From positions 1-22,336 of IMG/VR virus record IMGVR_UViG_3300025646_000425: a stretch of DNA of 22,336 nt; one strand, written 5' to 3'. A program made the position numbers and the translations under genes. This document shows positions 11,505 to 21,404 of this stretch, piece after piece; positions within the stretch are counted from its first letter, which is position 1, and each line of letters starts with the position of its first letter. Source of the stretch: a virus. The notes below the pieces were generated by a model, which worked only from the letters and a program-made list of their open reading frames with translations, had not been told where the DNA came from and ran no database searches.

Positions 11505-11527
11505 TCTAATAACACAGCCTCAAACTA

Positions 11528-11558
11528 TAAAGGGACACTCCGGTGTCCCTTTATTTTT
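11528..11558 (+). terminator. Intrinsic terminator after the giant fibre gene
   Basis: TAAAGGGACAC at 11528-11538 pairs perfectly with GTGTCCCTTTA at 11543-11553 around a TCCG tetraloop and is followed by TTTTT at 11554-11558. It begins 24 nt after the stop codon. An 11-bp stem plus U-tract is a textbook rho-independent terminator and isolates the fibre gene from the next late promoter. Confidence 0.93.
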
Positions 11559-11561
11559 GGC

Positions 11562-11567
11562 TAAATA
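11562..11567 (+). promoter_or_regulatory. Late promoter for the 567-aa fibre gene (GGCTAAATAGT)
   Basis: TAAATA immediately after the terminator and 22 nt before the ATG at 11589. By the T4 rule RNA starts near 11573, giving an approximately 16-nt leader that contains TTGGA as a weak ribosome-binding site. The flank matches the box at 5809. Confidence 0.7.
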
Positions 11568-11588: not shown

Positions 11589-13292
11589 ATGGCATTAACT
11601 AGACCTAAACTATCACAACTTGATTCCAGCAGTACAGTTTTTACTGATCCGCTATTAGTACTACATCAAGGCGCAACGGCCGCTAATATTGATGTTGGTT
11701 TCTTGTTTAATAGAGCAAACGGGCTAGTTAGTAATGTTGCTCTATACTGGAATGAAACTGACAAAGCGTTCTATACAACATACACAAACTCGGGTGGTGC
11801 TACAGATGCAAACCTTGTCCCTACTACATACGCTAACTTAGTTACTAATGTTCTATCAGCAAATACTATTAGCGTACCAAGTTTTACTACAACTGGTAAT
11901 ATCACAGGTGGTAACTTAATAACCACAGGAACTGTTACTGTTGATAGATTGTCTTTAAGCTCAAGTCAAACAACAGTACCTCCGTTACAGTTAACAGCAA
12001 GCTCGTTGCAGGACGGTGTTGGTGCCCTTAGAATAGATGGTTCACAAGCAGACATATTTTTAAATCCAGCTACCGCTACACATACTACTGTTACTTTTGC
12101 AGTAAACAACGACCAAAGATTAGCCTTTGGTATGGACAACAACAGTGATTTTTATATTACACGAAGAACTGGCGGAAGTTGGTATGACGATACATTAGTA
12201 ATAGACAGAGATAGTGGCCAAGTTGCGTTAGGGTACGACCTATTAGTATCAGGTGATGCAACTGTTAGTGGTAACTTAACAGTAAATGGCACAACCACAA
12301 CAGTTAGTACTACCAACACAGTAGTATCAGACAGTTTAATGGAATTAAACACAGGTGCTGGTAGCAATGCAAACGACTTAGGTTTTATATTTGAACGTGG
12401 TAGCACTGGTGACAATGCCGCAATTATCTGGGACGAATCAGCAGATGCTTTTGTACTAGGTACAACCACAGCAACAGGTGCTAGTACAGGTGACTTAACT
12501 GTTACAGCAGGTGCATTAAGTATTGGATCACTTACACTAGGTGGTACTGCTGTTACAAGCACAGCCGCTGAATTAAATTTACTAGATGGTGTTACTGCTA
12601 CTACAGCAGAGATTAATTACCTAGATGGTGTAACATCAGCAATTCAAACACAGATAGATAACATAAGTTCAGACTTTTATATTGCGGCTGACAATGGATC
12701 CAATGATACATTTACCACCGGACAAACACTTACATTTACTGGTAACACTGGTATAGACACAACAGTAGCAAATAATCAAGTATTCATTGCTCCCGATATT
12801 GGAGTTATTGCTACATTAACAGATGCACAAACACTTACAAACAAAACAATAACATCTCCAACTATTAACACACCAAGTATTAGTGGTAATATTACACTAG
12901 CAGGTAATGTGTTACCAAACCTAAACGAAGTATACAGTTTAGGTACAGCAGACAACAGATTTGCTACATTATTCGTTGCCAACAGCACAATTTATTTAGG
13001 TGATAGCGCACTTAGTTTAATTGGTGGTACACTATATGTTGACGGTACTCCGGTTACTGGTGCAGGAGATGCTTGGCCTGGGTACAATGGCGATTACGAT
13101 CTAGCAAAAGCACTGGCGCAAACTGATTCAGAAACACCGTTTGAAGCAGGTGGAACAGATGCATTTGGAGTAAGCACCTCGCTAGTTTTTGACAATATGG
13201 AGCCTGCAGGGTCAACAGTCACGTTTGATTATGCTGATAGTTACAGTAATGGTATAAAAGACAACTCAGCTGAAGCATACTTAGGTGCATAA
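11589..13292 (+). CDS. Tail fibre protein, 567 aa
   Basis: ALTRPKLSQLDSSSTVFTDP begins a fibre attachment module. Residues about 20-75 (FTDPLLVLHQG ... GFLFNRANG ... LYWNETDKAF) are a divergent copy of the module near residues 40-125 of the 1834-aa protein. Residues about 226-310 carry shared cassette A (GNLTVNGTTTTVST ... WDESADAFVLGTTTATGA). Then come TAAELNLLDGVT and EINYLDGVTSAIQTQID, motifs frequent in phage fibres, and DAQTLTNKTITSPTINTP, another common fibre motif. Unlike its neighbours it lacks the C-terminal YADLAENY domain and ends in a short Asp/Ser-rich tail (DAWPGYNGDYDLAKAL ... NSAEAYLGA). It may need another subunit as its tip. Weak ribosome-binding site; a terminator and late promoter precede it. 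Confidence 0.82.
   Translation: MALTRPKLSQLDSSSTVFTDPLLVLHQGATAANIDVGFLFNRANGLVSNVALYWNETDKAFYTTYTNSGGATDANLVPTTYANLVTNVLSANTISVPSFTTTGNITGGNLITTGTVTVDRLSLSSSQTTVPPLQLTASSLQDGVGALRIDGSQADIFLNPATATHTTVTFAVNNDQRLAFGMDNNSDFYITRRTGGSWYDDTLVIDRDSGQVALGYDLLVSGDATVSGNLTVNGTTTTVSTTNTVVSDSLMELNTGAGSNANDLGFIFERGSTGDNAAIIWDESADAFVLGTTTATGASTGDLTVTAGALSIGSLTLGGTAVTSTAAELNLLDGVTATTAEINYLDGVTSAIQTQIDNISSDFYIAADNGSNDTFTTGQTLTFTGNTGIDTTVANNQVFIAPDIGVIATLTDAQTLTNKTITSPTINTPSISGNITLAGNVLPNLNEVYSLGTADNRFATLFVANSTIYLGDSALSLIGGTLYVDGTPVTGAGDAWPGYNGDYDLAKALAQTDSETPFEAGGTDAFGVSTSLVFDNMEPAGSTVTFDYADSYSNGIKDNSAEAYLGA
12265..12510 (+). repeat. Shared cassette A, copy in the 567-aa gene
   Basis: Encodes GNLTVNGTTTTV ... 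SNANDLGFIFERGS ... WDESADAFVLGTTTATGA, aligned with the copies at 10733 and 14002. Codon-level differences indicate paralogues rather than a very recent duplication. Confidence 0.7.
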
Positions 13293-18831: not shown

Positions 18832-18860
18832 TTGACATATATAGTAAATGAGCGTATAAT
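18832..18860 (+). promoter_or_regulatory. Exact-consensus sigma70 promoter
   Basis: TTGACA at 18832-18837, a 17-nt spacer and TATAAT at 18855-18860: both hexamers and the spacing are perfect. RNA would start near 18867, about 25 nt before the ATG at 18892, which has AAGGAG at 18881-18886. It is divergent from the gp14 late promoter about 40 nt away. Host-type promoters drive early genes in T4-like phages. Confidence 0.92.
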
Positions 18861-18891: not shown

Positions 18892-20061
18892 ATGGCTGTT
18901 AAGACACGTAAAAAATCCAGTGGTAAACGAGTATATTTGGCAGACGAAAAGTATACTGGGCCCGAGCCAGTATGGGATACTGAACGTGCATTACAAATGG
19001 ACGAAGCAGAGTTCAATGGTCATTTGCACAAAAGTCTTAACTATTATAACTATCACTATGGTCCAAAAGATGTTAAGAAACACGTGGTCGCTTGGATGCA
19101 GGATAACGAATATAGCAAACAGGATGTAAGTGATTTTGTGCGTAGTCCAGATAGAATGTTGCCAATGACCGCTTGCAGTTTAGTTATGGCCTATAATGCA
19201 GGAATGCCATTGCAGGGTAAACGACTAGCCTATGTTAAAGATACAATCAAACAGGTTTGTAGTATTGTAGACTCAGGCGATTACGAAGATGAAACTCCTG
19301 TTAAGAGTAAAAAAGTAACACAGCCTGCACAGGTAAAAACCATTCAGGATAGACTACAAGAAAAAACAAACGAGCACCTTGGACACTTTGAAGGCCTAGT
19401 TGATGAACTTATCAGAGGCAACAAAGTAGATCCTAAAGCGTTTGAATACTTCAAAGCAAATAACATACCACAGGCGCAGTTAAGCAAGTACGAAGAATAC
19501 GCTAACTCATTTGTTGATGAACTCAAAGAATCGCAGAACACAGATGACGAAGATTTACGGGATGGTTATAGACATTTAAAAGCCGCAGACTATAAACGTT
19601 TCTTTGCGTTCTTTGACAAGTTCTACGAAGCAATAGAAGCATACAGACAAGTTAAGAAGCAGACTAAGAAGGCACGAGTAAAACGTGCGCCTAACAAAGA
19701 AAAACAGGTCAGCAAGTTAAAGTATATGAAGGAAGATAATACTCTCAAACTTGTAAGTATCAATCCTGTTGATATTATAGGTGCCGAAGAACTGTGGGTT
19801 TATAACACAAAAACACGCAAGTTATTTAAGTATGTCAGCGATAATTTAACTGGCCCCCTAAACGTTAAAGGAACTAGCATTTTAGGCTACGATAGTGCCA
19901 AAAGTATAGGGAAAACGCTCCGTAAACCAGATCAAAAACTAATGGAGTTTATGAAAGCGGGCAAAGTACAGTTACGCAAGTTTTTAGACGACATAAAGGC
20001 TACAAGTATCCCTGCCAATGGTCGTATCAACAACGATATACTGTTACTCAAAGCTCTTTAA
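18892..20061 (+). CDS. Unrecognised basic, helical protein, 389 aa (probably early)
   Basis: Strong start: AAGGAG 6-11 nt upstream and a perfect sigma70 promoter. The N-terminus is very basic (AVKTRKKSSGKR), a second Lys/Arg cluster (RQVKKQTKKARVKRAPNKEK) lies near residues 253-272, and acidic helical stretches lie between (DELKESQNTDDEDLRD). Residues about 45-70 (LHKSLNYYNYHYGPKDVKKH) are Tyr/His-rich. About 285-340 (LKLVSINPVDIIGAEELWVY) looks like a small alpha/beta domain. No membrane segment or signal. I recall proteins of this type in marine T4-like phages but not a function. The basic, mixed-charge character would suit nucleic-acid binding or a scaffold; that is a guess. It is the only gene here with a consensus host promoter, set between gp14 and gp13. 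Confidence 0.85.
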   Translation: MAVKTRKKSSGKRVYLADEKYTGPEPVWDTERALQMDEAEFNGHLHKSLNYYNYHYGPKDVKKHVVAWMQDNEYSKQDVSDFVRSPDRMLPMTACSLVMAYNAGMPLQGKRLAYVKDTIKQVCSIVDSGDYEDETPVKSKKVTQPAQVKTIQDRLQEKTNEHLGHFEGLVDELIRGNKVDPKAFEYFKANNIPQAQLSKYEEYANSFVDELKESQNTDDEDLRDGYRHLKAADYKRFFAFFDKFYEAIEAYRQVKKQTKKARVKRAPNKEKQVSKLKYMKEDNTLKLVSINPVDIIGAEELWVYNTKTRKLFKYVSDNLTGPLNVKGTSILGYDSAKSIGKTLRKPDQKLMEFMKAGKVQLRKFLDDIKATSIPANGRINNDILLLKAL

Positions 20062-20068
20062 CAGACTA

Positions 20069-20099
20069 GGTATCCTGCTAAATACAATATAAGGATACC
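20069..20099 (+). promoter_or_regulatory. Hairpin enclosing the gp13 late promoter and masking its ribosome-binding site
   Basis: GGTATCCT at 20069-20076 is the exact reverse complement of AGGATACC at 20092-20099. The right arm holds the AAGGAT ribosome-binding site of gp13, and the 15-nt loop contains TAAATA. No U-tract follows, so it is not a terminator. RNA reading through from the upstream gene would form the stem, while RNA started from the late promoter (predicted near 20090) would lack the left arm. Confidence 0.6.
20079..20084 (+). promoter_or_regulatory. Late promoter for gp13 (GCTAAATACAA)
   Basis: TAAATA 19 nt before the ATG at 20103, flanked as at 5809 and 11562. Predicted RNA start is near 20090, leaving a leader of about 13 nt that begins at the ribosome-binding site. 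Confidence 0.72.
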
Positions 20100-20102
20100 A
20101 AT

Positions 20103-21026
20103 ATGGCTGAACAAGACCTCACTAATTTTTACGCAAACGGAACTATAGTTACTGATAGCCTCTACGATGCCGCAACAGGCACAGGTAGCGGACATATCAA
20201 ATACGATCCAGATGGTAACTTTGGTGATTTAACTACTGCTCCAGTTGACGGAACCGTACAGTTAAAGCGTGGTGAGATCGCAGACTATATTAGACTTCGT
20301 TTAGCAGATGGTATTGTTGATGTAGAGCTTGATACTGACCATTATGATCTTGCTATTGATCAAGCAGTATTAAAGTATCGTCAACGTGCCAGTAACAGCC
20401 AAGAAGAATCCTACGCATTTTTAAAACTAAAGCCAGAAACACAAGAGTACATACTGCCTAATACAGTTATGGATGTACGTGCCGCTTATAGACGTGGTAT
20501 CGGAAGTGTAACAGGTACAACAGCAAGCCAGTTTGAGCCATTTGCTAGTGGTTACTTAAACACTTATATGTTAGTAGCAGGTCGTGTTGGCGGCTTATTA
20601 AGTTACGAACTATTTGTTGATTATCAAAAGCAGTCAATGAAGATGTTTGGTGGTTATTTAAATTTCCACTACAACAAAACTATGCGAAAGTTAACAATTA
20701 TTCGCAAGATGCCTACTCAAGGTGCTAATCCACAAGAAAGTGAAATGGAAGATGTGTTATTGCACATTTATAACTACAAGCCAGAAAGTATGTTGTTAAA
20801 TGACTACCAGGCTTTTCCGTGGATACAAGAGTATGCTTATAGTTTTGCTAAACGTATACTTGGCGAAGCACGTGAAAAGTTTGCTACAATCGCTGGACCG
20901 TCGGGCGGTACAAGTCTAAATGGTGCAAGTCTCAAAGCAGAAGCAAATGAAGAAATGGGTTCGCTAGAACAGCAACTTAAAGATTATGTTGATGGTAGTT
21001 ACCCACTTACTTGGGTTATTGGTTAA
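20103..21026 (+). CDS. gp13: gp13-like neck protein, 307 aa
   Basis: Length is almost that of T4 gp13 (309 aa). An early segment [20 protein letters not shown] followed by [14 protein letters not shown] parallels gp13 [47 protein letters not shown] matches the VFAVTRILRTNIGSIT region. [20 protein letters not shown] matches [20 protein letters not shown], and the end PLTWVIG matches FGILVG. gp13 sits under the portal and, with gp14, forms the head completion neck. In T4 gp13 and gp14 are adjacent and co-oriented; here gp14 lies on the other strand beyond the unknown 389-aa gene. AAGGAT ribosome-binding site within a hairpin. The stop overlaps the next ATG (TAATG). Confidence 0.88.
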   Translation: [307 protein letters not shown]

Positions 21027-21379
21027 TGCGAGCTAAAGAGTTCATTACAGAATCGCCTAAGTCTAAAATATCTAAGAACTTAGAATATTCAGGCTTGCAT
21101 AGTATGACACTTGGTAATAAAGATTATTACAGCCATTACAGACTTGGATTAGCAATGGCAGGTAGTCCAGATCTTGATAGTCCAAAATCTTCGCCGGCCG
21201 GAGACGAAGGACATATTTGGATGTATTCTGAAGCAGACGAAGAGATTGCTAAAACCGCAATGAAAAAGCAAGGTATCAAAGGCAAGACATTCGTACCTAA
21301 AGGTCCAAGTGTTGAAGTGCCTGCAATTAACAAACAAAGTCCTGTAGTACAACGCAAAAAGAACAAATACGGCGTTTGA
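21026..21379 (+). CDS. Small unrecognised protein (MRAKEFITE type), 117 aa
   Basis: I place the start at ATG 21026, which overlaps the gp13 stop as TAATG; an in-frame TTG at 21011 is possible but less likely. The N-terminus MRAKEFITESPKSK is a recurrent opening of small proteins in marine T4-like phages (from memory). The core YYSHYRLGLAMAGSPD is followed by an acidic segment (GDEGHIWMYSEADEEIAKTA) and a basic end (VVQRKKNKYG). Soluble and charged. Coupled translation with gp13 suggests late expression. No function can be assigned. Confidence 0.75.
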   Translation: MRAKEFITESPKSKISKNLEYSGLHSMTLGNKDYYSHYRLGLAMAGSPDLDSPKSSPAGDEGHIWMYSEADEEIAKTAMKKQGIKGKTFVPKGPSVEVPAINKQSPVVQRKKNKYGV

Positions 21380-21404
21380 CATTTCTGTTGTAATCCTTTA
21401 AAAT
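21376..21404 (+). promoter_or_regulatory. Sigma70-type promoter for the SGNH-like gene
   Basis: TTGACA at 21376-21381, a 17-nt spacer and TAAAAT at 21399-21404 (one mismatch to TATAAT). The predicted start, near 21411, coincides with the ATG, so the transcript would be leaderless. The -35 box overlaps the stop of the preceding gene. A TATAAAT at 21406 overlaps the ATG and is too close to serve this gene as a late promoter. Confidence 0.6.

Follow-up and report, generated by a model that had tools for sequence, protein, structure and literature searches.

The gp13 gene of this large T4-related phage very probably carries a cis-acting timing switch in its leader, by which early RNA would stay silent and late RNA would be translated. 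The DNA analyzed, here called the window, is the whole 22,336-nucleotide stretch of IMG/VR virus record IMGVR_UViG_3300025646_000425. According to our model, the sigma70 promoter at 18832 would give rise to early RNA that traverses the upstream gene phrog_11903 into gp13. A hairpin at 20069-20099 would fold in this RNA and mask the gp13 Shine-Dalgarno (SD) sequence, so that little neck protein would appear at that stage. A gp55-type sigma factor would initiate RNA late in infection at about 20090, inside the hairpin loop, and the late leader of about 13 nt, without the 5' arm, would leave gp13 freely translated. A preliminary description of the window had proposed such a switch. The hairpin, the compensatory changes in its stem, the early promoter and the absence of the block behind most opposite-strand genes all speak for the proposal, while the late 5' end near 20090, the read-through and the difference in translation are what we infer from these features.

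The gp13 leader in the window

The features of the locus are collected in Table 1. The two arms, GGTATCCT and AGGATACC, are perfect complements that form an 8-bp stem around a 15-nt loop (20077-20091, GCTAAATACAATATA). The loop contains TAAATA and the 3' arm nearly all of the SD sequence, just as the preliminary description had placed them; six bases separate the SD from the ATG. The 3' arm is followed by AATATGG, again in agreement with that description, and thus lacks the U-tract of an intrinsic terminator. Folding gave -10.3 kcal/mol for the hairpin on its own. The fold of 20040-20120 reached -17.0, against -10.1 +/- 2.5 in dinucleotide shuffles (z -2.75). No Rfam covariance model matched positions 19900-20300 at E values up to 1.

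Table 1. Positions of the features around the gp13 leader in the window.
Feature	Position	Strand	Basis
Sigma70 promoter TTGACA-17-TATAAT, early-type	18832..18860	+	12/12 consensus matches
Upstream gene phrog_11903, presumed early	18892..20061	+	PHROG match, E 4.5e-75
Hairpin 5' arm GGTATCCT	20069..20076	+	Covariation; predicted missing from late RNA
Late promoter box TAAATA, in the loop	20079..20084	+	T4 spacing would place +1 at about 20090
Shine-Dalgarno AAGGAT of gp13	20091..20096	+	Sequence; opening cost
Hairpin 3' arm AGGATACC	20092..20099	+	Covariation; contains most of the SD
gp13-like neck protein (head-tail adaptor Ad2), 307 aa	20103..21026	+	phrog_211, E 1.6e-32

The strength of the block was expressed as the cost (kcal/mol) of making the stretch from -14 to +3 single-stranded, in the long RNA and in the predicted late RNA. 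Opening the ribosome-binding site (RBS) of gp13 in the window costs 13.1 kcal/mol in the long RNA, in which the SD has a paired probability of 0.83, and 2.3 kcal/mol in RNA starting at 20090. This comparison with and without the first arm is a check suggested in the preliminary description. T4 gene e, a proven case, gave 16.4 (long) and 1.6-4.1 kcal/mol (late) by the identical method. The medians of the 114 leaders that follow phrog_11903 were 14.0 and 2.4 kcal/mol, and those of late-box genes generally in two large relatives were near 5 and 2.5.

Taken singly, the window sequence is only suggestive of a functional hairpin. When the 41-nt gp13 spacer was dinucleotide-shuffled 20,000 times, a perfect 8-bp inverted repeat arose in 97 of the shuffles, so that the earlier estimate of a chance below about 1% was a fair one for this spacer. 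The 22-kb window holds 11 perfect 8-bp repeats (about 2% per 42 nt), and the chance of such a repeat is about 0.5-2% per spacer. Only the gp13 site among the 16 TAAATA sites of the window has a strong flanking stem. Elsewhere in the window, a perfect 12-bp inverted repeat of terminator-like appearance (ATAAAGGGACAC/GTGTCCCTTTAT, 11527-11554) immediately precedes a late box at 11562 and the gene at 11589.

Conserved pairing among relatives

Five scans of viral contigs, together with a few named phages, yielded 128 distinct gp13 leaders, with phrog_11903 directly upstream in 114. TAAATA was found upstream of gp13 in all 128, a figure somewhat favoured by the method because gp13 start codons were picked partly by an upstream TAAATA. 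In each of the 114 leaders after phrog_11903 it lies 23-38 nt ahead of the start, and in 111 of these the SD is predicted to be hidden, by very different stems. The arms are GGTATCCT/AGGATACC in the window's clade, GATATCCT/AGGATATC in L013 and GGTGTCCT/AGGACACC in the L028-L067 group. More distant leaders have ACTCCGT/ACGGAGT, GTTCTTG/CAGGAAC, GATCCTG/CAGGATC or AGTCCCG/CGGGACT. In the outer clade (L068-L080) the hairpin seemed to lie upstream of the SD; this was rejected for L074 and its kin, in which a longer stem covers the SD. The spacer and the whole window had zero matches in the DNA of named phages, and no relative turned up when bacterial and archaeal genomes were scanned.

The preliminary description had asked whether the arms of relatives carry compensatory changes, and they do so strongly. 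In the near clade, 97.7% of the cells are paired, whereas slid registers give 38-50%. Two pairs show two-sided changes, and three positions of the stem have G-U pairs. A stem score of at least 16 was reached by 84% of native leaders, by 15% when the 5' arms were swapped for those of dissimilar leaders and by 5% with shuffled arms. These comparisons are strong evidence that the hairpin is real and is kept in more than 100 distinct leaders with changed stem sequences. A chance inverted repeat, for which the frequency of such repeats in the window would speak, is consequently next to negligible as an explanation, since compensatory change on this scale removes the doubt that the chance estimate had left.

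The same data bear on whether the repeat works as DNA, either by belonging to the late promoter or by binding a transcription factor. It does enclose the late box and could make a palindromic DNA site. However, such repeats are missing at most late boxes of these phages, it is the pairing and not the arm sequence that is conserved, and the G-U pairs at three stem positions pair in RNA but not in DNA. We regard a DNA site as quite improbable.

The jumbo phages GAP32, 121Q, CBB and XaC1 (L087, L411, L413 and L416), whose gp13 starts were read directly from the sequence, have CTAAATA in or beside the hairpin 5' arm and the SD in the 3' arm. A T-run follows their hairpin, which may therefore also terminate; possibly it unites a terminator, a late promoter and an RBS hairpin. 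This T-run is what would favour an intrinsic terminator that halts early RNA ahead of gp13 as the function of the element as a whole. The window has no T-run, though, and the terminator scan reports no terminator there; near relatives have no T-run either. Such a function is very improbable. In 121Q and RaK2 the annotated gp13 start (L411 1935, L412 1941) falls within the hairpin 3' arm, and an in-frame or nearby later ATG after GAGGTG looks the likelier start. In L436, a strong GC-rich terminator-like hairpin with a T-run stands just 5' of the gp13 late box in place of the RBS hairpin, perhaps as an alternative means of stopping early read-through.

Read-through, neighbour orientation and late transcription

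The timing switch presupposes early RNA that enters gp13. The preliminary description had named a consensus sigma70 promoter at 18832, and the match is indeed perfect. It is also conserved, as a sigma70 promoter with zero to two mismatches precedes phrog_11903 in nearly all relatives' loci that extend that far. The terminator scan found no + strand terminator between 18860 and 20100. Beyond the gp13 cassette, at 21376-21404, there is a near-consensus sigma70 promoter (TTGACA-17-TAAAAT), so that late gp13 appears to be flanked by early-type genes.

In some relatives the gene preceding gp13 lies on the opposite strand. This is the case in L042/L046 and L056, where phrog_11903 is found downstream on the opposite strand and, in L056, the preceding gene resembles the kinase-like gene at the right end of the window. 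L282 and L358 have a gene on the opposite strand between phrog_11903 and gp13, and in L358 this gene is weakly HNH-like. The predicted RBS block is missing in eight of nine opposite-strand cases, with the late box retained; opening the RBS takes 3 to 8 kcal/mol in L042/L046, L056, L282, L358, Atu_ph07, Vibrio phage 2.275, Phosso and L418. The exception is L306, with an opening cost of 17.8 behind an opposite-strand gene; at its gp13 start (2501), a strong hairpin (CTACTCCG/CGGAGTAG) with an inner stem is present, although it is an opposite-strand gene that lies between phrog_11903 and gp13.

An opening cost of at least 9 was found in 108 of 124 same-strand leaders and in one of nine opposite-strand leaders (Fisher p 3e-6, a value that ignores relatedness and uses a cut-off chosen once the data had been seen). 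A contiguous-stem score of at least 16 was reached in 106/124 and 2/9, respectively. In a tree-based test of opening cost against neighbour strand, on a set that gives about six pairs, about 3.9 pairs went the expected way and none the other, which was not significant (p 0.125). The opening cost is low in 16 of the 124 same-strand leaders. PA5oct has the phrog_11903-gp13 gene order, and a convincing hairpin over its late box was not found.

These leaders also bear on a further explanation, in which a trans-acting translational repressor, either gp13 itself or a RegA-like protein, would use the hairpin as its operator and recognise the loop. T4 offers precedents (gene 43, RegA; PMC3014915), and no part of the gp13 hairpin is more conserved than the loop sequence. 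However, TAAATA persists where the hairpin is lost (L042, L056, L282) and precedes many late genes that have no hairpin, as expected of a promoter but not of an RNA loop. Both the stem and the loop size, moreover, vary widely among leaders. A repressor operator is in our judgement unlikely.

The timing switch also needs a late sigma factor. Its gene lies outside the window, a genome fragment, and a gp55-type factor is seen in relatives: ten of 11 large relatives' records contain a gp55-like match, and the two gp55-like proteins that were scanned both matched phrog_12791 ('sigma factor for late transcription') with E values no higher than 1e-76. In the cultured jumbo phage CBB, ATAAATA ahead of structural genes has been proposed as the late promoter, and a gp55-like sigma factor is described (PMC5259590).

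Known devices and other late genes

In T4 genes e, soc and 49, a hairpin hides the SD in early read-through RNA, and transcripts that lack the 5' arm arise from a late promoter located between or in the arms (PMC3014915). The leaders of T4 I-TevI and segB and of Aeh1 mobE likewise form an RBS hairpin in RNA from an upstream promoter, which a late promoter relieves (PMC2988022). The gp13 leader resembles T4 e, soc and 49 in its SD-hiding hairpin, in the late box between the arms and in similar opening energetics (computed for e). The marks of a T4-type device found here are an SD paired in the long RNA, a late box between the arms, an early promoter with no terminator in between, compensatory pairing and, in relatives, a gp55-type sigma factor. 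The gp13 leader differs from T4 gene e in serving a neck-protein gene of a very distant phage through another stem, and in having one late box instead of two; its effect is predicted from sequence, whereas T4 e is a proven case. With the I-TevI, segB and mobE leaders it shares an RBS hairpin relieved by a late promoter, but these serve homing endonucleases and the gp13 leader an essential-type structural gene. CBB and GAP32 likewise have a gp55-like sigma factor, and structural genes in them are preceded by a TAAATA-type box (PMC5259590, in whose consulted passages RBS hairpins are not mentioned). The gp13 RBS hairpin that we observed in these phages has a T-run that the window's lacks. On these predicted features, the gp13 element is the device of T4 e, soc, 49 and I-TevI in a distant lineage. 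A search of the open-access literature turned up no description of this arrangement before gp13. The novelty lies in the gene served, in the phage lineage and in how broad the comparative evidence is; the device itself is known from T4.

Other late genes of these phages carry the same arrangement. In a 354-kb and a 374-kb relative, seven and five late-box genes reached a stem score of 18, against shuffled expectations of 1.3 and 0.8. They include a GH19-type endolysin, an SprT-like protein and fibre-like genes. The endolysin hairpins with a late box (G011:C1:146376(-), AACTCCTTTGG/TCAAAGGAGTT; G013:C1:120393(-), AAACTCCT/AGGAGTTT) parallel T4 gene e. RBS hairpins over a late box also precede the SprT-like genes (G011:C1:203351(-), TTGCCCTC/GAGGGCAA; G013:C1:197921(-), AAAGAGCTCTC/GAGGGCTTTTT), and their stems differ between the two genomes. 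A hairpin at every late box was rejected, as most late-box genes were at or below the shuffled controls; most of them lack the device, which is thus selective. We lean slightly towards a lineage-wide timing regulon in large T4-related phages, in which late genes that follow early genes (gp13, the GH19 endolysin, the SprT-like protein, tail sheath and fibre genes) would carry late-box hairpins, gained and lost with neighbour orientation. In GAP32-like phages, a few dozen bases would then combine the terminator, the late promoter and the RBS hairpin.

These results indicate that selection has maintained, across a wide group of large environmental phages, a form of control known from only a few genes of T4. 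Here it is kept at a structural gene, through dozens of different stem sequences, and the absence of the block in most opposite-strand relatives provides a natural test of the hairpin's purpose. The pattern could reveal, from sequence alone, which late genes of uncultured phages lie under early read-through.
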